Counted from the first letter of the stretch, positions 5,701-39,482 are shown. The stretch is DNA of 48,892 bases from Methanosarcinaceae archaeon (GCA_020055655.1 JAIPUR010000019.1:1-48892), one strand, 5' to 3'. The notes: generated from the letters alone by a model not told the origin. Made by a program: numbers and translations.

Positions 5701-6198
5701 ATGAATTTTACTCCAAAAAATAAACTAAGCAAGCAGAAAGGTGGAAAAAAGAACTTGAAAATATCATTTCTAGTTCTGATCTCTTTTGTTTCAATTTTTA
5801 TGTCAGGATGTATATTCGATGAAGCACAAGGTGTTGAAATTTCAGGAGATATTGGATATTCTGTAGGTTCCATTAGTGAAGATCAAACAGATATCCAAAA
5901 GATCCAATGGACAGCTAGTGTCGGAAATAATGGAGAAATAACGGCAAAAAACGTCAGCTGTAAAGTTATACTTCATCCAGAAGTATCATCAAGATTGATT
6001 GATCTTGAAGGAGATACAAAACATATTGGAAACTTAGAGTCTGATACCTGGGAAGGCTTTAAAGGTAATGCAACATTTAATGCAGCCAATTTAAGCAAAC
6101 AAGACATGGATGAATGGGGAAAGCTTATCGAAGTAAAAGTAATGTGGGAAGAGAATGGAGAAATGTTTGAAAAAACAATTCCTGATATGGTAAAATGA
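5701..6198 (+). CDS. Small secreted lipoprotein
   Basis: A 165-residue protein with a basic N-terminus (about 19 residues), a hydrophobic signal stretch and a lipobox ending in MSGC, so the mature protein would begin with a lipidated cysteine near residue 37. The rest resembles an archaeal beta-sandwich of the FxLYD/CARDB-like kind: alternating hydrophobic strands, GNNGEITAKNVSCKV and VMWEENGE. The upstream 295 bases hold a TATA-like AAGTATATATG near 5597-5607 and otherwise nothing I can name. A small membrane-protein gene follows 47 bases later on the same strand. Function unknown; likely an extracytoplasmic binding or adhesion accessory. Confidence 0.65.
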   Translation: MNFTPKNKLSKQKGGKKNLKISFLVLISFVSIFMSGCIFDEAQGVEISGDIGYSVGSISEDQTDIQKIQWTASVGNNGEITAKNVSCKVILHPEVSSRLIDLEGDTKHIGNLESDTWEGFKGNATFNAANLSKQDMDEWGKLIEVKVMWEENGEMFEKTIPDMVK

Positions 6199-14357: not shown

Positions 14358-15527
14358 ATGTTTGGGGAAATGACATATCTTGATAATGCTGCCAGTACAC
14401 GATTAGATGAAAAAGTACTGGAAGCTATGAAACCGTATTATTTTGAGACTTATGCGGTTGCAACATCTGAATTTGGATATTCCATGGGAATAGATGCTAA
14501 AGAAGGACTGCAGGAAGCCCGGGAAATGATTGCCAGGTCCATTGCTGCTTCAGCAGAGGAAATTGTTTTTACATCAGGAGACACCGAGTCAAGTAATATG
14601 GCCATAAAAGGTGTTGCTCAGGCACTGCAGGATAAAAAAGGGAAGCATATAATAATTTCAAAAATTGAGGATTTCTCAGTCCTGAACACTGCAAAAATGA
14701 TGGAAAAACAGGGATTTAATGTTAGTTTTATAAATGTAGATTCCGAAGGAATACTTGATCTGGAAGAATTAAAAAATACAATAACAGATGAAACTATACT
14801 TGTATCCATACAGCATGCGAACCAGGAGATAGGTACTCTTCAGAATATCGAAGCAATTGCTAAGATATGCAAAGAGAAAGATCTAGTAATGCACACCGAT
14901 GCAACTCATAGTTATATGAGAGTGCCAATTGATGTTACAAAAATACCTGTCGATCTTATCACAATCTCAGCCCATACCATCCATGGTCCACGTGGCATAG
15001 GAGCTTTGTACATCAGAGAAGGTACCCCCATAAATAAATGGATGGATGGCGGTTTTCAGGAAGCGAATAGACGTGCCGGCCTTGAAAATATACCTGCAGC
15101 CGTTGGATTTGCAAAGGCAGTAGAACTAGTGACAGCTGAAGAGACTGAAAAGCTTGCATCACTGCGTGATTATACTATCAAGCGTGCTGAAGAAGAAATA
15201 CCACATGTAACACTAAATGGAAGCAGAGATCAAAGATTACCCCAGAATGCAAATATCACATTCCATTATGTGGAAGGTGAGTCCATGACACTACATCTTG
15301 ATATGCGTGGTTTTGCAGTGAGTACAGGATCAGCGTGTTTTAGCCGTTCCCTCGAAGCAAGTCATGTTATAATGGGTATTGGCGGAGATCACGAAAGAGC
15401 ACATGGATCAATTCGTTTCACATTTGGACGCTATAACAGCAAAGAAGATGTTGATGCTGTAATGGATTCAATAAAGGATATCGTAGCACAGCTCCGGGCT
15501 ATAAGTCCGCTTTATGATAGTAATTAG
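14358..15527 (+). CDS. iscS: IscS/NifS-like cysteine desulfurase homologue lacking the PLP lysine
   Basis: A 389-residue class V aminotransferase-fold protein of the NifS/IscS group. The N-terminal MTYLDNAAST, the phosphate-binding TSGDTESSN (residues 72-80), QHANQEIG (152-159) and the PLP-ring aspartate Asp181 match the family. The mobile-loop cysteine that receives sulfur is Cys327 in STGSACFSRS. However, the lysine that forms the Schiff base with PLP (SAHK in typical IscS) is Thr207 (SAHTIHGPRG, codon ACC at 14976-14978), and the glutamine after the aspartate is histidine. From memory, Archaeoglobus fulgidus IscS also lacks this lysine and still forms an IscS-IscU complex. GGAGGG five bases upstream sets the start. 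It may act as a sulfur scaffold or use another amine. Confidence 0.85.
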   Translation: MFGEMTYLDNAASTRLDEKVLEAMKPYYFETYAVATSEFGYSMGIDAKEGLQEAREMIARSIAASAEEIVFTSGDTESSNMAIKGVAQALQDKKGKHIIISKIEDFSVLNTAKMMEKQGFNVSFINVDSEGILDLEELKNTITDETILVSIQHANQEIGTLQNIEAIAKICKEKDLVMHTDATHSYMRVPIDVTKIPVDLITISAHTIHGPRGIGALYIREGTPINKWMDGGFQEANRRAGLENIPAAVGFAKAVELVTAEETEKLASLRDYTIKRAEEEIPHVTLNGSRDQRLPQNANITFHYVEGESMTLHLDMRGFAVSTGSACFSRSLEASHVIMGIGGDHERAHGSIRFTFGRYNSKEDVDAVMDSIKDIVAQLRAISPLYDSN

Positions 15528-15538
15528 AGGTGATAAAA

Positions 15539-16174
15539 TTGAAGTTCCCATACAGTGAGAAAGTTCTTGAGCATTTCAAGAATCCCAAAAATGTTGGCAA
15601 AATAGAAGAAGCCGATGGAAAAGGGATGGAAGGAAGTCCTGCATGTGGTGATATGGTAGCAGTTTATCTCGATGTCAACGAAGAAACAATGATAATAGAA
15701 GATGCTAAGTTCGAATCATATGGCTGTGCATCAAATATTGCAACAGCATCCATAATTACCGAGATGGCAAAAGGCAAAACACTTGAAGAAGCAAAAAAAA
15801 TCACCTGGAAAGAAGCTACTGAGGAATTGGGTGGGCTTCCTCCTGTTAAAGCACATTGCTCCGTATTGGCAGTAGAAGGTCTAAGAGCTGCTATTCGTGA
15901 TTATGAGGAAAAGCATGGACTTATTACTGAGAATGAGCCAACAACTGTTGATGTTGTAAGAAGCCGGCTTAAGCACGTAATGAACCCAATGGCCGGTCTT
16001 GATATAATCCGTACAGAGCTGGTAAGCAAGATAGAAGTCAATGATGGTGTTGTGAGAATACTGATCGACCTCCCATCTACCCACCAGTTTGCAGCTGCGA
16101 TCAAAGAAGATACCCTTGAAAAAATCGAATCTCTCTGGGATGTAAAAGAAGTAAACATCGTTTTCACTGAATGA
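15539..16174 (+). CDS. iscU: IscU scaffold fused to a DUF59/MIP18-type domain
   Basis: A 211-residue two-domain protein. Residues 1-125 are IscU/NifU-N: YSEKVLEHFKNPKNVG, then the three cluster-ligand cysteines at Cys36 (SPACGD), Cys63 (YGCASN) and Cys107 (KAHCSVL), with Asp38 at the position that labilises the cluster. Residues 135-211 look like a DUF59/PaaD/MIP18 domain: VRSRLKHVMNPMAGLDII, then VRILIDLPSTHQFAAAI and the closing VKEVNIVF strand. In separate proteins that domain helps FeS cluster transfer. The start is TTG at 15539, four bases after GGTGAT; a GTG at 15530 lies inside the ribosome site. The gene begins 11 bases after the desulfurase stop, so scaffold and sulfur source are made together. 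Confidence 0.8.
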   Translation: MKFPYSEKVLEHFKNPKNVGKIEEADGKGMEGSPACGDMVAVYLDVNEETMIIEDAKFESYGCASNIATASIITEMAKGKTLEEAKKITWKEATEELGGLPPVKAHCSVLAVEGLRAAIRDYEEKHGLITENEPTTVDVVRSRLKHVMNPMAGLDIIRTELVSKIEVNDGVVRILIDLPSTHQFAAAIKEDTLEKIESLWDVKEVNIVFTE

Positions 16175-29737: not shown

Positions 29738-29746
29738 TTATATATA
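29738..29746 (+). promoter_or_regulatory. TATA box for the thiohistidine operon, leaderless start
   Basis: TTATATATA is centred about 27-28 bases before the ATG at 29770. Archaeal transcription starts roughly 25 bases after the TATA centre, so the message would begin at or next to the start codon. No ribosome site precedes the ATG, which agrees with a leaderless mRNA. Confidence 0.55.
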
Positions 29747-29769: not shown

Positions 29770-31032
29770 ATGGTGTGTATATCAACTGATGAGTTACTGG
29801 ATAGTTTACAAGATTATAAATTGATAGATGTAAGGTCTATTGATGCTTATAATGGCTGGAAAGAAGCCGGCGAGGCAAGAGGAGGACATATAAAAGGTGC
29901 CAGGTCACTTCCTCACAAATGGTTACATTATATCGACTGGATAGAGATTGTTAGAAGCAAGGGTATTTTACTTAAAGATTCCCTGCTGATCTACGGCTAT
30001 AATAAGGAAAAAACAGAGGAAGTAGCCAGGCAATTCGAAAGAGCCGGCTATCACGATGTTACAGTTTACGATTCATTTCTTGAATGGGCTGAAAAGGACC
30101 TTCCAATGGAGCATCTTGAAAAGTACCGGCAGCTGGTCTCGGCACGTTGGCTGAATCAGCTCATTAATACTGATAATGCTCCTGAATATGACAATGACAA
30201 ATATGTCATATGCCATGCCCACTACATGAATCCTGAAGATTATGATAGAGGACATATTCCCGGAGCAATAGCACTTGATACTAATTCACTTGAATCAACT
30301 GAAGACTGGAATCGTCTCCCTCCTGAGGAACTAAAAGAAACCCTTGAAAAAGCAGGCATAACCCATGATACGACCGTGATTCTCTACGGAAGGTTCGCTT
30401 CACCAAGCAATGATGATCCTTTCCCGGGAAGCAGTGCCGGTCATCTGGGTGCAATTCGCTGTGCATTCATAATGCTCTATGCGGGTGTTAAGGATATTCG
30501 CATACTCAATGGAGGACTCCAGTCCTGGCTTGATTCAGGTTTTGAAGAAACAAGGGAATTCTTTGAAAACTCCAGATCATCATTTGGAATTGAAATACCC
30601 CAAAAAAATGAGATCATGGTCGATCTTGAAGAAGCAAAGCAGATACTTGCCGACTGTGACAAAAACCTTGTAAGCGTTAGAAGCTGGCCGGAATATATTG
30701 GGGAAGTGAGTGGTTACAATTACATTGAGAAAAAAGGAAGGATTCCAGGTTGTGTTTTCGGAGATTGTGGTACTGATGCTTACCACATGGAGAACTACAG
30801 GAACCTGGATCATACCATGCGTGAATACCAGGAAGTTTTTGAGAACTGGAAAAGAATGGGCATAACTCCAGACAAACGCAACGCATTCTACTGCGGAACT
30901 GGATGGAGAGGCAGTGAAGCATTCTTCAATGCATGGCTTATGGGCTGGGAGAAAGCAGCAGTCTATGATGGAGGATGGTTTGAATGGAGCAGCAACAACC
31001 TTCCTTTTGAAACTGGAGTACCTGAAAAATGA
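29770..31032 (+). CDS. eanB: EanB-like triple-rhodanese sulfurtransferase (anaerobic ergothioneine synthase candidate)
   Basis: A 420-residue cytoplasmic protein with three rhodanese-like domains (about 1-115, 120-262, 280-420). Only the last has a catalytic cysteine: Cys375 in CGTGWRGS. The equivalent loops in domains one and two (IYGYNKE, LYGRFAS) have none. Characterised EanB of Chlorobium, as I recall it, uses Cys412 with Thr414, Trp416 and Tyr353 to replace the imidazole C2-H of trimethylhistidine by C-S. Here Thr377 and Trp379 keep the same spacing from the cysteine, and Tyr316 lies 59 residues upstream just as Tyr353 does. The next gene, overlapping by four bases, encodes a histidine methyltransferase. 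If the substrate is hercynine, the product is ergothioneine. Confidence 0.8.
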   Translation: MVCISTDELLDSLQDYKLIDVRSIDAYNGWKEAGEARGGHIKGARSLPHKWLHYIDWIEIVRSKGILLKDSLLIYGYNKEKTEEVARQFERAGYHDVTVYDSFLEWAEKDLPMEHLEKYRQLVSARWLNQLINTDNAPEYDNDKYVICHAHYMNPEDYDRGHIPGAIALDTNSLESTEDWNRLPPEELKETLEKAGITHDTTVILYGRFASPSNDDPFPGSSAGHLGAIRCAFIMLYAGVKDIRILNGGLQSWLDSGFEETREFFENSRSSFGIEIPQKNEIMVDLEEAKQILADCDKNLVSVRSWPEYIGEVSGYNYIEKKGRIPGCVFGDCGTDAYHMENYRNLDHTMREYQEVFENWKRMGITPDKRNAFYCGTGWRGSEAFFNAWLMGWEKAAVYDGGWFEWSSNNLPFETGVPEK

Positions 31033-31991
31033 TTATAGAAGATCATATACCGAAAGTCGGGGAAAGTTCAATTCAGGAAGAATTGCTTAATTGCCTGACA
31101 TCCGAGCCTAAGATGCTTCCTTCAATGTATTTTTATGACAATTATGGGTCTGAGCTATTTGAAAAGATCACACAGCTTGAGGAGTACTATCAACCAAAGA
31201 TCGAAATGCTACTGCTCAGGTCTACTGCCCGGAAACTCAAGGGTGAAATAAAGGACTGTGACCTTGTGGAGCTTGGTAGCGGAGATTGCTCTAAGATATC
31301 CGTGTTACTTGATGAAATTCCGGAAGAGATTCGTCAAAGTATAGTCTATTATCCTGTTGATATCTGCAAAGAAGCTATAGAAAGATCTGCCTGCAATCTT
31401 CAGGAAAAGTATCCGGAAATGGCAATACACGGGATAACTGCTGATTTCCTTGAGCATCTTGAAAATATCCCCGGAAAAAGAAGGAGGTTTTTCTGCTTCT
31501 TCGGAAGCACAATAGGTAACCTTAGCGAAGAAAAAGCATTTGAGTTTATGGAAAATCTTGGTGATATTATGAGCAGGGACGATAGGCTCCTTCTTGGAAT
31601 AGATATGGTAAAAGATATTGATATCATTGAAAGAGCCTATAATGATAGCAAGGGAATCACTGCGGAATTCAATAAGAACATATTGAAAGTTACTAATTCT
31701 CATCTCGGGACTGATTTTGATCCTGAGGAGTTTGAACACGTTGCCTTTTTTAATGAGAATAATTCCAGGATTGAAATGCATCTGGAAGCTAAAAAGGATC
31801 TTGAAATTGATATTCCGTTCTTTTCAGAAAAAATCGTTTTCAAGAAAGGTGAAACGATACATACTGAAAACTCCCACAAGTACACTGCAGAGAGTATTAG
31901 CAGGCTGGCAGACGCAGCGGGACTTACTATGAAAAATACATTCACTGATGAGAAAGAATGGTTCTCTCTTGTTGAAATGGTGAAAGTATGA
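31029..31991 (+). CDS. eanA: EgtD/EanA-like L-histidine N-alpha-methyltransferase
   Basis: A 320-residue SAM-dependent methyltransferase of the EgtD family. SAM-binding ELGSGDCSK is at 81-89, Asp111 lies in YPVDI and Asp139 in TADF. The histidine-pocket residues I remember from mycobacterial EgtD (Tyr56, Asn166, Tyr206, Glu282, Ser284) all have equivalents at a constant offset of two: Tyr54 (EEYYQ), Asn164 (TIGNLS), Tyr204 (ERAYND), Glu280 and Ser282 (HTENSHKY). That supports trimethylation of histidine to hercynine. The ATG overlaps the eanB stop (ATGA), and its own stop overlaps the sufS start in the same way, so translation is coupled through the operon. Confidence 0.85.
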   Translation: MIIEDHIPKVGESSIQEELLNCLTSEPKMLPSMYFYDNYGSELFEKITQLEEYYQPKIEMLLLRSTARKLKGEIKDCDLVELGSGDCSKISVLLDEIPEEIRQSIVYYPVDICKEAIERSACNLQEKYPEMAIHGITADFLEHLENIPGKRRRFFCFFGSTIGNLSEEKAFEFMENLGDIMSRDDRLLLGIDMVKDIDIIERAYNDSKGITAEFNKNILKVTNSHLGTDFDPEEFEHVAFFNENNSRIEMHLEAKKDLEIDIPFFSEKIVFKKGETIHTENSHKYTAESISRLADAAGLTMKNTFTDEKEWFSLVEMVKV

Positions 31992-33169
31992 CTTATTTTA
32001 GAAAAGACTTCCCGATTCTTGAAAAAGAAATATACGGAAGACGGCTGGTTTATCTTGATAATGCCGCTACAACCCAGAAACCAAAATCTGTAATTGATAA
32101 GATCTCTGATCTTTATAGGGATGATTATAGTAATATTCACAGGGGCGTCCATTACCTGAGTGAGGCTTCAAGTGAGAAATATGAAGCTGCAAGAAAAAAA
32201 GTAAGTGATTTCATAGGAGCCCGGAACCCAGATGAAGTAACATTCACTGCCGGAACCACAGATTCAATTAATCAGGTAGCACGTTCCCTTGAACCTTCAT
32301 TAAAGGGAAATGAAGTCCTTGTAACAAGTGTAGAACATCATTCCAATATCGTACCTTGGCAAATGGCAGGGGCAAAGTTAAGAGCCATTCAAATGGATGA
32401 AGACTGTAATTTACTGCCGGAATCTATGGAGATCACAAAGGATACAAAACTAGTGGCAATTTCCCATGCATCAAATGTCCTGGGTTCTCTTAACGAGGTC
32501 AAGGAGATCACTAAGATTGCAAGTGAGCATGATGTTCCTGTATTGGTGGATGCTGCACAATCGGTACAGCACCTACCTCTCGATATAAAAGATATTAATT
32601 GTGATTTCCTGGCTTTTTCAGGCCACAAAATGTATGCTTCAACCGGTGTCGGGGTGCTTTATACAAGTAAAAGGTTCAGCGACATCATGCCTGCAAAAGG
32701 TGGTGGTGGCATGGTGGACAAGGTAACCCTTGAGAAAACAACATATGCAGAACCCCCTTTAAGATTTGAGGCAGGGACCCCTGATATTGCAGGGGCTATC
32801 AGTATTGGCGCGGCAATCGATTATATGAAGGGCATAGGCATGAAAAACATAAAAAAGCATGAACATGATATTTATTCCTACGCGAAGGAAAGGCTGCTGG
32901 AAAAGGATAACATAACTATTTATGGAAATACACCTCAAATGTGCGGAGCCATCTCATTCAATCTTAATGGAATTCATCAATATGATGCAGGAATGATACT
33001 TGACAAGATGGGGGTTGCTGTCAGGACAGGACACCATTGTGCCCAACCATTGATGAATAGCCTGGGTATTGAAGGAACAGTAAGAGCAAGCTTTGCATTG
33101 TACAACACAAAAGAAGATGTAGAGATGTTGATCGAAGGAATAGAAAAAGTAGAGATGATGTACAGGTGA
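31988..33169 (+). CDS. sufS: SufS-type cysteine desulfurase
   Basis: A 393-residue group II cysteine desulfurase. The PLP lysine is Lys214 in FSGHKMYAS, the ring aspartate Asp188 in LVDAAQSVQH, and the sulfur-accepting cysteine Cys351 in RTGHHCAQPL. The N-terminal FPILEKEIYGRRLVYLDNAATTQKP region (split here only for description) is typical of SufS. Unlike the IscS-like protein at 14.4-15.5 kb, every catalytic residue is present. It overlaps eanA and sufE by four bases on each side. No sufB, sufC or sufD gene is near, so its persulfide more likely feeds the rhodanese protein of this operon than FeS assembly, although a shared role is possible. Confidence 0.9.
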   Translation: MTYFRKDFPILEKEIYGRRLVYLDNAATTQKPKSVIDKISDLYRDDYSNIHRGVHYLSEASSEKYEAARKKVSDFIGARNPDEVTFTAGTTDSINQVARSLEPSLKGNEVLVTSVEHHSNIVPWQMAGAKLRAIQMDEDCNLLPESMEITKDTKLVAISHASNVLGSLNEVKEITKIASEHDVPVLVDAAQSVQHLPLDIKDINCDFLAFSGHKMYASTGVGVLYTSKRFSDIMPAKGGGGMVDKVTLEKTTYAEPPLRFEAGTPDIAGAISIGAAIDYMKGIGMKNIKKHEHDIYSYAKERLLEKDNITIYGNTPQMCGAISFNLNGIHQYDAGMILDKMGVAVRTGHHCAQPLMNSLGIEGTVRASFALYNTKEDVEMLIEGIEKVEMMYR

Positions 33170-33573
33170 AAGACGCTATTCAGGATGAAATAATCCAGGA
33201 ATTTGCAGGTCTTGATTGGTTCGATAAATACGAGCTCCTAATAGAATCAGCCAGAAATATCGACTATATGGATAAAAAGTTCAGAACTGAAGAAAACTCG
33301 ATCAGTGGTTGCCAATCCAAAGTATGGATCAGAAGTTATATTGATGATGGTAAGCTGGTCTTTGAACTGGACAGCGATGCCATGATCACAAAAGGAATAA
33401 TGTCCCTTTTACTCAGGGTTTTTAACAACCGATATTCTGAAGATATCCTGAATACTGATCTGTATTTCATTGATGATATTGGGCTAAAATCAAACCTGTC
33501 ACCTGCAAGATCAAATGGGTTACAGGCCATTATCAATAGAATCAGAGAAATTGGTGAAGAAGCAGTTCCTTGA
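33166..33573 (+). CDS. sufE: SufE sulfur acceptor
   Basis: A 135-residue SufE-family protein. The persulfide-accepting cysteine is Cys49 in ISGCQSKVWI, the family hallmark. The N-terminal helices (QEFAGLDWFDKYELLIE) and the late AITRGLA-type turn, here MITKGIMSLLLRVFN, match SufE. The start is GTG overlapping the sufS stop (GTGA). SufE takes sulfur from SufS Cys351 and passes it on; in this operon the natural recipient is Cys375 of the rhodanese protein. A hairpin terminator candidate lies about 150 bases downstream. Confidence 0.9.
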   Translation: MKDAIQDEIIQEFAGLDWFDKYELLIESARNIDYMDKKFRTEENSISGCQSKVWIRSYIDDGKLVFELDSDAMITKGIMSLLLRVFNNRYSEDILNTDLYFIDDIGLKSNLSPARSNGLQAIINRIREIGEEAVP

Positions 33574-34173: not shown

Positions 34174-34785
34174 TTAAGTGCGGTTCAGGGCAGACATATA
34201 AGTTACATCATGGCACAATCTGTTAATTAAACTTTTATCGTGGCTTACAACAAGAACTCCCACGTTCAGCTCTTCAACGATACCTAAAATACTCTCCCAT
34301 ATTTGAGCCTGAGTTATAGCATCCACCATAGTTGTGATCTCATCAGCGATCAAAAATTTTGTTTTTGGCCCCAAAGCTCTTGCAAGGGCAAATCTTTGAA
34401 GCTCTCCTCCGGAAAGTTCGTTTGGCCATCTATTAAGCCATTTCTCTTTAATTCCAAAGGATTCCAGAATGTCCTGTGAAACATCATGACCTTCCTTTAA
34501 GATATCTTTCATTTTCCATTTTGGATTCACCGCTTTTTCTGGATGCTGGAAGATAAGCTGGACTGGATTATATCCACTTGATGGAATATTATTACCGTCT
34601 ATACTTACATTTCCTCTGTGTTTTTTTTCATATCCTGCCAATATTTTGCACAGGGTTGATTTACCGCATCCGCTGTCTCCCACAAGGCCCAGTACTTCTC
34701 CGCTTCTAAGGGATATGTCCACATCCCGTAAAATCAAATTGCTCTCCTTGTAGCCGAAGCTGATATTCTCACCTTTAAGCTGCAT
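34174..34785 (-). CDS. ABC transporter ATPase, nickel/peptide type (NikE/DppF-like)
   Basis: A 203-residue ATP-binding subunit. Walker A is GDSGCGKST (about 37-45), the signature is ELSGGELQR (about 124), Walker B is FLIADEI followed by the D-loop, and the switch histidine is in VVSHDKSL. It lacks the C-terminal oligopeptide/nickel extension of the larger partner, as in compact NikE-type proteins. It starts 11 bases before the end of the other ATPase gene, with GAGGTG five bases upstream, so the two ATPases form a coupled heterodimer. Last gene of the importer operon. Confidence 0.88.
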   Translation of the reverse strand: MQLKGENISFGYKESNLILRDVDISLRSGEVLGLVGDSGCGKSTLCKILAGYEKKHRGNVSIDGNNIPSSGYNPVQLIFQHPEKAVNPKWKMKDILKEGHDVSQDILESFGIKEKWLNRWPNELSGGELQRFALARALGPKTKFLIADEITTMVDAITQAQIWESILGIVEELNVGVLVVSHDKSLINRLCHDVTYMSALNRT

Positions 34786-35752
34786 TATTGCACCTCACCA
34801 TTCCCCCGTTGAATATTTTCAGTTTGGGGGTACATTTGGAGCAATTCTCATTCCCTGTGGAGCACCTTTTATAGAAGAAGCATCCTTCAAGCACTTCATC
34901 CTGCATGGGATGGTGGCCTTTTATGGCATGGAACTTGTTTTGTGGCAGGGCATTCCATAATGCCCTTGTATACGGGTGCCTGAGTTTTTCTCCCTCACCT
35001 GCAAAGTCCCCGGATTTTGCAATTTCCAGGATGGTTCCGGCGTAGAAAATAGCAATCTTATCAGATATTTTCAATGCAGCTTCTATATCGTGGGTTATCA
35101 GGATGACTGCATATCCTTTCTTTGCCATGTTCTTGAAATAACTTAGTGTTTCATTCAGGTTTTTCTCATCCAGCCCCGGTGTGGGCTCATCTGCAATTAC
35201 AATCTTAGACGATTCCATAACGGCAGTGGAAACCAAGACTCTTCGAGTCATTCCTCCAGAAAGTTCATGCGGGAACATCCCTTCGACCTCAGGTTTTAGG
35301 TCATATTTTTTAAAGATATCTCTCTGAAGATTCTTTCTGGACTCTGCATTTTTCCCATCGGTATTTCCTATGACCTGACTGGAAATTCTCATCAAGGGAT
35401 CAAGGTATTTGGTTGACTGGGGAATAAGGACGATTTCTTTGCCTCGAAGTTCCTCCTTTTTCTTCCGATTCAGGTCGTAGCCATTGTATTCCATACCGCC
35501 ACTAAGTTGTGCGTTTGATGGAAGAATTCCTAAAATAGCATGTGCCAGAAGACTTTTCCCTGAACCACTGGAACCAACGACCGCTAAGATTTCACCACTA
35601 TAAGCTTCCATGCTCAAATTCGATATCACTTTTAATTCGGTTTGCCGCAGTCCAGAGGTATATTGGATAAAAGAAAGGGAAACATCTTTGACTTTTAGCA
35701 AAGCGTCAGATTTATCCTTTTTATCAGTAGTTACTTGAGATATATTTTTCAT
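34775..35752 (-). CDS. ABC transporter ATPase, nickel/peptide type (NikD/DppD-like)
   Basis: A 325-residue ATPase subunit with Walker A GSSGSGKSL, signature ELSGGMTRR, Walker B KIVIADEPTPGLD and switch His in LITHDIEA. The C-terminal 70 residues carry the oligopeptide/dipeptide/nickel transporter extension, including LRHPYTRALWNALPQ and a cysteine cluster (CFFYKRC, then CSKC) of the kind that binds an FeS cluster in related DppD-type proteins. GAGGTG precedes the ATG by four bases. It is the third-from-last step of a five-gene operon with two permeases and a binding protein. Confidence 0.9.
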   Translation of the reverse strand: MKNISQVTTDKKDKSDALLKVKDVSLSFIQYTSGLRQTELKVISNLSMEAYSGEILAVVGSSGSGKSLLAHAILGILPSNAQLSGGMEYNGYDLNRKKKEELRGKEIVLIPQSTKYLDPLMRISSQVIGNTDGKNAESRKNLQRDIFKKYDLKPEVEGMFPHELSGGMTRRVLVSTAVMESSKIVIADEPTPGLDEKNLNETLSYFKNMAKKGYAVILITHDIEAALKISDKIAIFYAGTILEIAKSGDFAGEGEKLRHPYTRALWNALPQNKFHAIKGHHPMQDEVLEGCFFYKRCSTGNENCSKCTPKLKIFNGGMVRCNNAA

Positions 35753-35804
35753 ACTTCACCTCTTTTTATCATTTCAATCAATTTTCATCAACAATTATCT
35801 GTTT

Positions 35805-36662
35805 CTATTCGTGAGCTTTTTTCGGATCTAGCATTTTTCCAAGATTTTCCCCTATTAAGTCAAATACCAGGATCACGATCAGAAGTGATAATCCCGGGAA
35901 AAATGCAAGCCACCAGTATCCTGCTGAAAGGTATTTCATTGATTCTGACAGGATAATGCCGATTGCCGGTTCATGTGGAGAAAGTCCAAAGCCCAGAAAA
36001 GTTACTGATGCTTCATGCAGAATTGCATGGGGGAACATTACAATCGTTCCTAATACAAACTGAGGAAGCAGATGAGGAAAAATATGATTTTTAGCGATCC
36101 ACCACTTTGATTTTCCAAATTTTTGCGATATATGGATGTATTCCTGGGTTTTTATCTGTTTGACTTCTGCCCTTACAACTCGTGTAAGACTTGTCCAATG
36201 CGATAATGCAACCCCTATGATAACTCCGGTAGCTCCTCCACCAAATCCTATTGAGATCAAAATAATCAATAGGAGATGTGGTATTGAAAGAAATAGATCT
36301 ACCAGCCAGGATACAATTGAATCCTCTATTTTACCTATACTTGAAAGTAAACCTAAAAAAACACTGATTATAGTGCTGATCGAGGAAGCTAAAGCTCCAA
36401 TTATTATACTTAAACCAAGTCCGCCAAGAGTTCGCACAAACATGTCTCTTCCCATCCAGTCTGTTCCAAAAGGATGTTCCAGAGAAGGTGCAAGGTTCTT
36501 TGATTCAAAGTCAGTTGACAGTGCATTCTCATCTATGAATGCACTGGAAACCACGATTGCAATCAATAACAATGACAGGCAACTAATCAGCATGATGGTT
36601 TTCTGTCGCAGGTTGATTCCTTTGAATAGTTCCCTGTTAGCATTTACAACAGCAGTAGTCAT
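35805..36662 (-). CDS. ABC transporter permease (NikC/DppC-like)
   Basis: A 285-residue inner permease with about six helices. The N-terminal extension and HPFGTDWMGRDMFVRTLGGL motif are typical of DppC/OppC/NikC proteins, and the cytoplasmic EAA-type loop reads VVRAEVKQIKTQEYIHIS. Its ATG overlaps the stop of the upstream permease gene by four bases, so they are made in equal amounts and pair in the membrane. Located between that gene and the NikD-like ATPase. Confidence 0.9.
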   Translation of the reverse strand: MTTAVVNANRELFKGINLRQKTIMLISCLSLLLIAIVVSSAFIDENALSTDFESKNLAPSLEHPFGTDWMGRDMFVRTLGGLGLSIIIGALASSISTIISVFLGLLSSIGKIEDSIVSWLVDLFLSIPHLLLIILISIGFGGGATGVIIGVALSHWTSLTRVVRAEVKQIKTQEYIHISQKFGKSKWWIAKNHIFPHLLPQFVLGTIVMFPHAILHEASVTFLGFGLSPHEPAIGIILSESMKYLSAGYWWLAFFPGLSLLIVILVFDLIGENLGKMLDPKKAHE

Positions 36663-37648
36663 GGCCTCGTCTCCTGCTGTTTTATTCTGGGGTCAACGAA
36701 TTCATAGATTATATCGGCTATCAGATTTCCTGAATAGACAAACAAAGTGCTGACAATGACTATTGCCAAAAGCAGGGGCACATCTGACCTTAAACCCGCT
36801 GCCACTGCAGCCTGACCAAGACCTGGATAAGAAAACACCTGCTCAACTAGTACAGCTCCTCCAAACAGTTCACTGAATCCTAAAAACTGCAATGTAATAG
36901 CCGGAAGTGCAACATTCCTGATTCCATGCCTTTTTACCAGATCAAATCCTGTTTCTCCTCTTGCCTTTGCAAATAGAACATAATCACTTGACATAACCTC
37001 AATTAATTTTTCACGAGTGAACATTGCGATAGAGGCAACTCCAAGCAGACTAAGGGTTATTGTTGGAAGTATCAAATGATGGATGCGGTCAAAAAAAGTC
37101 ACATCCCCACTTGCAACACCTATAGGCACACTTAGACCTACCGGGAACCATCCTAAGTTTACCGAAAATATCAATAAGAAGATCAATGCCAACCAGAAAG
37201 TTGGAGCGGCAAGCAGAATGTAGCAGTATGTCTTTATTACCTTATCAATAAAAGTTCCGTGTTTCATCCCGGCTACAATGCCTAAAACAAATCCCAGAAT
37301 TCCTGATAGCACCCATGAAGAAGCCATGAGCAATAGAGAAGATGCAAATCGTTCTTTAATTATATCTGTCACAGGCATCCTGTATATCAGTGAGGTGCCA
37401 AAATCCCCTTCAAGAGCACTACCCGCCCAATTTAGAAATTTTTCATGTGCAGGAGTATTAACTCCCCAGTATTCTTCCATCTTTGCTTTTTGTTCTGGTT
37501 GTATACTCATTTCCCCAATATATGCCCTGACAGGATCTATTGGGGATTGCTCCACTATCCAGAAACTGGCAACGCAAACAAATATTAAAAGAACAATTAA
37601 TTTGAGGGTCTTTTTCCCCATAAAAATGCCTAATTTCTCATATTTCAC
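36659..37648 (-). CDS. ABC transporter permease (NikB/DppB-like)
   Basis: A 329-residue permease with the DppB/NikB layout: an N-terminal anchor helix, a periplasmic loop containing YWGVNTPAHEKFLNWAG and GDFGTSLIYRMPV, and an EAA-type loop around VLFAKARGETGFDLVKRHG. The start is GTG at 37648, chosen because GGAGGT lies eight bases upstream; an internal ATG at 37621 lacks one. The 120-base gap to the binding-protein gene holds no clear promoter, so read-through from upstream is likely. Confidence 0.9.
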   Translation of the reverse strand: MKYEKLGIFMGKKTLKLIVLLIFVCVASFWIVEQSPIDPVRAYIGEMSIQPEQKAKMEEYWGVNTPAHEKFLNWAGSALEGDFGTSLIYRMPVTDIIKERFASSLLLMASSWVLSGILGFVLGIVAGMKHGTFIDKVIKTYCYILLAAPTFWLALIFLLIFSVNLGWFPVGLSVPIGVASGDVTFFDRIHHLILPTITLSLLGVASIAMFTREKLIEVMSSDYVLFAKARGETGFDLVKRHGIRNVALPAITLQFLGFSELFGGAVLVEQVFSYPGLGQAAVAAGLRSDVPLLLAIVIVSTLFVYSGNLIADIIYEFVDPRIKQQETRP

Positions 37649-37769
37649 TCTCTTTGACCTCCAATTTCCATTCTGGTAAAGTTGTGGCTCGGGATATTTT
37701 CAAAAGCTTTGTTTATGGTTAAAAAAAGTTGAACTGAGAGATTCCCCCTCAGTTAATCAAACCACGGAT

Positions 37770-39389
37770 CTAGTTCCCTTTGAGCTCCCATTCCAGAATA
37801 TTTCCGAATATATCAGCACCGTGTGGCTGTATCTTTGGTGTACCTATGTCTATTTTCTCATCCATGATGTACAGGTAGTCAACGGTTGCCATCCACATCC
37901 ATGTTGCATCGCCTTTAGAAGAGAAACCTGTATCTCCGTCCCATGCTGCAAGCTGCCAATCCTTGTTTGCAGCATTCTGATCTGGATTTGTTATTGCAGC
38001 CCTTAAATGGGAGTCCACGGTCGGATTGCTGTACTTTATTATGTTGTTGTAGCTTGAGGGATCATAGCTCTTGCTGTAGTATTTCAGGTACAGGTCGGTC
38101 GGATCGAGTGAACCGTAACCGAAGACAACCGGAGTTGAAAGGGCAAGGGTATCGATCTTATCCCAACTTGCACCTTCGGGTATTATGTTGATACCGATCT
38201 TTTTGGATTCTTCGGAAATTGAAACTGCCAGAGCTTGTCTTTCCTGTGCACTAGCAGCGTATAAAAGAGTAAATTCAGCTTTTACTTCGTTCTTTTCAAC
38301 AATACCGTCTCCATCAGTGTCTTTCCAGCCGGCGTCATTTAATATTTTCTTAGCCTCATCAATGTTTCCATCTTCAAAAATTGCATCTTTGTTTCCCCAT
38401 GGTAGTTTGTCCACACCGGTGAACTCTTCCTCGCCCTGGCCGTTCAGTGCGGCATCGACCAACTTTTGCCTGTCGATTCCTATGTTCAGTGCTTTTCTGA
38501 TTGCAATGTCAGAGGTCACATCGTTCCCAATCGGATATCCATCCTCGGATTTTTCACCTGTCTCGGGCTGAATCGGGAAACTGATTCCACGGGCATCAAT
38601 TGAATCTAGGGATACTACCTTCATTCCGTCAACTTTCTGGCTTGCATAGGAAGATGGAATTTCAGCCAGATCGATCTGGCCTGATTTCGCAGCGGCAAAA
38701 GCAGTATCTGCTTCCATGAATACAATGGTTAGTTTCTTGAAGTAAGGTTCATCTCCATAATAATCAGGATTTGCTTCCAGAATTACCTGTTGTCCTTTAT
38801 CCCACTGTACAAATTCATAAGGCCCTGATCCTATTGGACTCTGGCCGTAGTCTTCATTGTATGCATGTTCAGGGACAATTCCTATAACTGCCAGTTTATT
38901 GATAAATGTGGCCTGATTGTCATTCAATTCAAATTTAATGGTATCATCATCAATGGTTGTAGCTTTTTCCAGCATGGAAAGGTCCACACTGCCCCCAGCA
39001 TTTGCTGCAGTATTGAATGTGAAGGCTACATCCTCTGCTGTCAGTGATTCTCCGTCATGGAACTTGACATCGTTCCTTATCGTAACAGTCCATGTATATC
39101 CATCTTCACTAGCTGAGTGTTCGGTAGCAAGATCGCCAACAAAGGCAGCATTATTATTTCTATTAAAAAGAGTACTCTGGATTAAAGGTTCATGGTTGTA
39201 ACCCCATCCTGTAATAGGGTTAAATCCAGATTCAGGTTCTCCTCCATGGGTTCCAACTGCTGCAATTAACTCATCCGTTCTTATTTCTTCAGTACCTGAT
39301 GCTTCTGTTTTACTGTCCGCACATCCAGAAACCATAACTGCCACTACTAGTAGCATTCCTATCAATAACATACTCAATGATTTTTTCAT
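37770..39389 (-). CDS. Family 5 solute-binding lipoprotein of a nickel/peptide ABC importer
   Basis: A 539-residue extracytoplasmic binding protein. It begins with a signal helix and lipobox (VAVMVSGC), followed by an acidic linker and the SBP_bac_5 domain: NDVKFHDGESLTAEDVAFTF, GSGPYEFVQWDKGQQV and RKALNIGIDRQKLV are diagnostic. The substrate of family 5 proteins (peptides, nickel, opines or metallophore complexes) cannot be read from sequence; methanogens have high nickel needs for F430, hydrogenases and CODH, so nickel or a nickel chelate is a fair guess. AGGAG precedes the ATG at 39389 by eight bases; a GTG one codon earlier is the alternative. Three palindromes in the 5' flank suggest tight regulation. 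Confidence 0.85.
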   Translation of the reverse strand: MKKSLSMLLIGMLLVVAVMVSGCADSKTEASGTEEIRTDELIAAVGTHGGEPESGFNPITGWGYNHEPLIQSTLFNRNNNAAFVGDLATEHSASEDGYTWTVTIRNDVKFHDGESLTAEDVAFTFNTAANAGGSVDLSMLEKATTIDDDTIKFELNDNQATFINKLAVIGIVPEHAYNEDYGQSPIGSGPYEFVQWDKGQQVILEANPDYYGDEPYFKKLTIVFMEADTAFAAAKSGQIDLAEIPSSYASQKVDGMKVVSLDSIDARGISFPIQPETGEKSEDGYPIGNDVTSDIAIRKALNIGIDRQKLVDAALNGQGEEEFTGVDKLPWGNKDAIFEDGNIDEAKKILNDAGWKDTDGDGIVEKNEVKAEFTLLYAASAQERQALAVSISEESKKIGINIIPEGASWDKIDTLALSTPVVFGYGSLDPTDLYLKYYSKSYDPSSYNNIIKYSNPTVDSHLRAAITNPDQNAANKDWQLAAWDGDTGFSSKGDATWMWMATVDYLYIMDEKIDIGTPKIQPHGADIFGNILEWELKGN

Positions 39390-39482
39390 CACAAATACTC
39401 CTGTATAAATTTTGAAATATCAACTATTCTGCATTATTCCCCGATTTAGCTTGATACTAAAATTTGGATATTAGGGGGAAAT

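Follow-up and report, generated by a model that had tools for sequence, protein, structure and literature searches.

Four-gene operon of a Methanolobus-type methanogen predicted to make ergothioneine without oxygen, with its own sulfur delivery from cysteine

The DNA analysed here (the window, 48,892 nucleotides; JAIPUR010000019.1:1-48892 of assembly GCA_020055655.1) derives from a Methanosarcinaceae archaeon and carries four consecutive genes, eanB, eanA, sufS and sufE (Table 1), assigned below to a predicted oxygen-independent pathway to ergothioneine. The host genome of 2.48 Mb (99.9% complete, 48 contigs) encodes a pyrrolysyl-tRNA synthetase, as expected for Methanosarcinaceae, and its closest relatives by EanB are Methanolobus (79% identity); the organism is a Methanolobus-type methanogen. 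The four open reading frames (ORFs) yield the Pfam domains Rhodanese (three copies), Methyltransf_33, Aminotran_5 and SufE. A first-pass annotation of the window had claimed a four-base overlap at every junction, which the ORF coordinates bear out (ATGA, ATGA and GTGA).

Table 1. Features of the eanB-eanA-sufS-sufE locus, in positions of the window
Feature	Position	Strand	Description
putative TATA box	29739..29744	+	31 nt upstream of eanB ATG; TATATA match
eanB	29770..31032	+	420 aa; triple-rhodanese ergothioneine synthase, catalytic Cys375, with Tyr316, Thr377, Trp379, Arg380
eanA	31029..31991	+	320 aa; EgtD family histidine N-alpha-trimethyltransferase (TIGR03438, pocket residues, AlphaFold2 fold)
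sufS	31988..33169	+	393 aa; group II cysteine desulfurase, pyridoxal phosphate (PLP) lysine 214, persulfide cysteine 351
sufE	33166..33573	+	135 aa, GTG start; sulfur acceptor/carrier, single Cys49 (PF02657)

The rhodanese protein matches the solved EanB of Chlorobium limicola (PDB 6ktv) over residues 4-419 (phmmer, 562 bits, E 5.5e-168), and the next PDB family for it is YnjE (E 4e-83). When 82 sequences are aligned, C. limicola Cys412, Tyr353, Thr414, Trp416 and Arg417 fall on the residues given in Table 1, and all five are invariant in 63/63 sequences with known context. Roles of Cys412, Tyr353 and Arg417 are described in PMC10903977, that of Thr414 in PMC9103826. The AlphaFold2 (AF2) model has a mean predicted local distance difference test score (pLDDT) of 84, with low confidence at residues 335-350, and its 14 best Foldseek matches are all EanB structures (template modelling score, TM, 0.88-0.90). 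Alignment and predicted structure thus agree with the first-pass assignment to EanB, which had been based on the cysteine, a threonine at +2, a tryptophan at +4 and a tyrosine 59 residues upstream. A Bacteroidales genome (L046:5983-8229) encodes EanB and EanA fused in a single 749-aa open frame, a natural link between both enzymes.

EanA scores 358.2 bits against TIGR03438, the EgtD equivalog of NCBIfam (cut-off 290.9), and its AF2 model (pLDDT 89) reaches a TM of 0.94 to EgtD 4pim. The histidine pocket of EgtD, which we take to comprise Tyr39, Tyr56, Asn166, Tyr206, Met252, Glu282 and Ser284, is matched by Tyr36 and Tyr53 at offset 3 and by Asn164, Tyr204, Met250, Glu280 and Ser282 at a constant offset of 2, and the pocket residues are invariant in 20/20 homologues; the EgtD-like pocket of five residues proposed earlier is complete, on a fold that matches EgtD. 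A Methanococcoides-group genome encoding PylS (G019) possesses an in-frame TAG in an otherwise intact eanA (L095, around 5977-5979), where relatives have Lys or Arg codons; either EanA contains pyrrolysine or the gene is disabled. Many genomes of Methanosarcina-type genera (g6, g7) that lack EanB contain a relative of the EgtD family that scores weakly, at about 35-66 bits, and is mostly 317-384 aa long.

SufS scores 510.3 bits against TIGR01979 (cut-off 475.1), its PDB matches are SufS, and it keeps the PLP lysine (Lys214) and the persulfide cysteine (Cys351). SufE matches PF02657 (135.9 bits) and E. coli SufE in the PDB (E 4e-17), and its sole cysteine lies in the motif GCQSKVW. Against NF006792, the NCBI equivalog of E. 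coli SufE, it reaches only 89 bits (cut-off 160) and is therefore a SufE-family protein of another lineage. The operon copy is the one SufE match in the whole genome. A second SufS (L092:1808-5948), with 41% identity to that of the operon, has genes nearby that by eye resemble YcaO and TfuA.

The order eanB-eanA-sufS-sufE is kept in all ten other methanogen loci that reach far enough; two more (L001, L009) run into contig ends and stand outside this count. Any flanking gene is common to just 7/55 pairs of methanogen loci; as the flanks mostly change, the unit consists of the four genes. Chance adjacency is excluded by this conserved order amid mostly changing flanks, and by recurrence of the order in five or more further groups at phylum level. 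The exact motif TATATA occurs at -28 to -31 of the eanB ATG in the window and seven other methanogen loci, and L011 fits this spacing after its eanB start is moved by three codons. As judged from sequence, the motif suggests a promoter immediately upstream of eanB and a nearly leaderless operon mRNA.

Among 150 Methanosarcinales genomes, EanB is present in 28, belonging to four genera, and a set of 295 genomes from the phylum adds no further genus. SufE occurs in all 28 EanB genomes and otherwise only in G131 and G029 (Fisher p ~2e-28, not corrected for genome kinship). In G131 the contig boundary falls within eanA, leaving a truncated operon in which sufS and sufE come next. In G029 (L091:1-400) a 29-residue C-terminal SufE remnant lies next to a tRNA-like 3' end where the contig begins, probably an operon loss or a contig-edge artefact. 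The 28 EanB genomes, and no others, also have an EgtD above the cut-off; G131 has a truncated form. The operon-type SufS (71-82% identity) is likewise restricted to the 28 genomes and G131, other SufS proteins reaching 45% at most. A 2021 methanogen survey counted SufE in 10/132 Methanosarcinales and treated it as iron-sulfur (Fe-S) machinery (PMC8351635); the pattern found here suggests that the rare methanogen SufE belongs to ergothioneine synthesis instead.

Outside the methanogens, neighbours were scored at the best 80 of 307 EanB loci. The full four-gene order is also present in Thermoplasmata, Phycisphaerae, Omnitrophota, Aminicenantes and Elusimicrobia, so that the search for it in other archaea, proposed with the first-pass annotation, yields methanogens and Thermoplasmata. 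One Chitinivibrionales genome has eanB-sufS-sufE, Caldithrix, Gemmatimonadetes, Ignavibacteriales and others have eanB-sufE without adjacent sufS, and in some bacteria eanB and sufE are adjacent though eanA and sufS are both missing from the locus. Where eanA is missing from the eanB locus, an EgtD above the cut-off was found elsewhere in 6/7 genomes checked. Bacteroidota loci mostly consist of eanB-eanA without SufE. Downstream context is informative at 62 EanB loci, 28 of them linked to SufE or SufS and 34 unlinked. Five of six SufE-linked non-methanogen genomes scanned possess the copy beside eanB as their sole SufE (Caldithrix has a second), whereas unlinked genomes scanned have one SufE each, elsewhere than eanB. 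The SufE cysteine is kept in 26/26 linked loci, 25 times as GCQ and once as ACQ. Salinimicrobium (L042, L053, L058, L062, L063, L065, L076) carries EanB, with EgtD elsewhere in the three genomes checked. The group is generally regarded as aerobic, and EanB is therefore not limited to anaerobes.

On a tree of the 80 loci and the window, which covers nearest relatives only, SufE linkage maps as one change, the split having moderate support in a short search (Shimodaira-Hasegawa-like approximate likelihood ratio test, SH-aLRT, 94); since the sample consists of the 80 nearest relatives, exceptions may exist further out. C. limicola EanB groups with the unlinked set, which leaves one change if it is scored unlinked and two if linked. 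Eight EanB positions are specific to the linked or unlinked clade, one of them lying four residues ahead of the catalytic Cys, but may simply reflect phylogeny. The operon SufS of archaea and bacteria forms one clade (bootstrap 98, SH-aLRT 97), apart from the SufS copies that EanB-bearing organisms encode elsewhere in their genomes, which supports joint inheritance of the module and transfer between bacteria and archaea.

The four genes almost certainly encode an ergothioneine pathway, its product predicted from the enzyme families and conserved residues, and the dedication of SufS and SufE to this pathway is highly probable. As a whole, the operon probably serves to make ergothioneine without oxygen, the sulfur being supplied from cysteine by its own SufS and SufE through EanB. 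EanA, by family and pocket residues, would trimethylate histidine with S-adenosylmethionine to hercynine. SufS, by family, would move the sulfur of L-cysteine onto Cys351 and from there to Cys49 of SufE, which would load Cys375 of EanB, directly or via a short-lived small persulfide or polysulfide. With Tyr316 as acid/base, EanB would then place the sulfur on C2 of the imidazole ring of hercynine, yielding ergothioneine; the flux along these steps is a prediction from the genes. The first-pass annotation had proposed such a route from cysteine via persulfide to thiohistidine, and gene linkage, phyletic co-occurrence and phylogeny support it. We regard direct transfer from SufE to EanB, rather than via released polysulfide, as marginally probable for the last carrier. 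The cysteine of SufE sits on a mobile loop, which could in principle enter a tunnel-type cavity of EanB.

SufS and SufE may instead merely make soluble polysulfide or persulfide for EanB, as in Chlorobium, with no specific SufE-EanB contact, an account that we hold possible if rather doubtful. Cysteine desulfurase IscS supports EanB in vitro (PMC11767532, PMC9103826), but several points weigh against the proposed protein relay or its product. In vitro, C. limicola EanB works best with polysulfide as donor, and the IscS effect on this enzyme was later reinterpreted as polysulfide supply (PMC9103826). Direct protein-to-protein transfer is disfavoured because Cys412 ends a 13 Angstrom tunnel, which is argued to exclude the desulfurase cysteine (PMC9103826). 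The catalytic residues are common to all EanB clades irrespective of SufE linkage, and SufE is missing at 34/62 EanB loci (55%), nearly all from Bacteroidota, so that linkage is not required by all EanB. Finally, no ergothioneine had been detected in archaea as of a 2020 review (PMC7278568). On the other hand, free polysulfide, if sufficient, would leave no need for a dedicated SufE, a protein known for taking up a persulfide and carrying it in protected form, and in several bacteria eanB and sufE stay paired without a neighbouring sufS; the clade-specific EanB positions point the same way only if they are more than phylogeny. A division of EanB into two lineages by sulfur supply, one a SufE-loaded protein relay (all methanogens and diverse bacteria, with the SufE of Methanosarcinales serving solely this pathway) and the other unlinked and including Chlorobium, has in our estimate an even chance of being correct; the unlinked lineage may draw on polysulfide or on general donors of sulfur.

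Since SufS and SufE count classically as Fe-S proteins, and SufE as Suf machinery in the methanogen survey cited above, the pair might serve Fe-S cluster assembly and stand in the operon by chance or through shared regulation. This is improbable and was dropped, as SufB, SufC and SufD genes are not in the operon, a single SufB-type gene lies on another contig (C11), and the genome possesses a separate Fe-S assembly pair in the window (14358-16174, a NifS/IscS-like desulfurase directly followed by a NifU/IscU-like protein) besides the second SufS. Moreover, most Methanosarcinales lack SufE, which tracks EanB one to one. Least probable, and very much so, is another thio- or seleno-histidine as product, such as selenoneine via selenocysteine lyase activity, which SufS-type enzymes also have according to PDB names: the EanB residues for C2 sulfuration and the EgtD histidine-pocket residues are all kept, the operon has no selenium gene, and an attempt at selenoneine synthesis with EanB failed (PMC9103826).

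The neighbouring genes, an M18 aminopeptidase upstream and an Opp/Nik-type ATP-binding cassette (ABC) transporter downstream, were rejected as pathway members, not being conserved at other loci, except for an ABC pair with 33-36% identity at the Methanohalophilus locus L005. The transporter of the window (34174-39392, opposite strand) includes a NikA/oligopeptide-like binding protein, and the distantly similar pair of L005 also lies downstream of the operon.

The operon thus predicts that an antioxidant, ergothioneine, is made without oxygen by a methane-producing archaeon, suggests a role for ergothioneine in strict anaerobes and movement of the four-gene module between archaea and bacteria, and would explain the rare methanogen SufE genes. 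Which sulfur donor EanB uses in nature is disputed: the cysteine desulfurase employed in early work was later taken to act as a source of polysulfide. The conserved SufS-SufE-EanB operon names a specific, testable donor. Outside the founding EanB papers (Burn 2017; Cheng 2020, 2021), which may already mention the sufS/sufE linkage, the literature searched yielded no paper linking SufS or SufE to EanB.

Pairs of eanA and eanB are reported in more than 20 anaerobes (PMC9103826). The EanA-EanB system of Chlorobium limicola (Clim_1148/1149) resembles that of the window in its EgtD-type methyltransferase, triple-rhodanese EanB, catalytic residues and fold; in the window, by contrast, sufS and sufE join the pair in a single operon that starts with eanB, and the window EanB belongs to the SufE-linked branch, that of C. 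limicola to the unlinked one. Homologues of eanA-eanB in methanogens were predicted in the 2020 review, including synteny in Methanococcoides vulcani (SAMN04488587_0183/0184), which shares the gene pair, the synteny and the archaeal order with the window; the sufS-sufE neighbours and the sulfur donor go unmentioned in its available sections (PMC7278568). The gene pair as such is therefore not new in methanogens, where the first-pass annotation called ergothioneine not commonly reported; the SufS-SufE part of that annotation is better supported than the sequence alone could show. MES of Caldithrix abyssi (PMC9516567) also makes ergothioneine anaerobically with cysteine sulfur from a dedicated cysteine desulfurase, but it is an unrelated metallopterin sulfurating enzyme, and its desulfurase is a fused NifS/IscS-like domain instead of SufS with a separate SufE. 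With the SufS-SufE and CsdA-CsdE relays the operon shares the group II desulfurase, the SufE acceptor and the conserved cysteines; unlike these, it has no SufBCD, and its predicted acceptor is a rhodanese that makes a small molecule, not an Fe-S scaffold.

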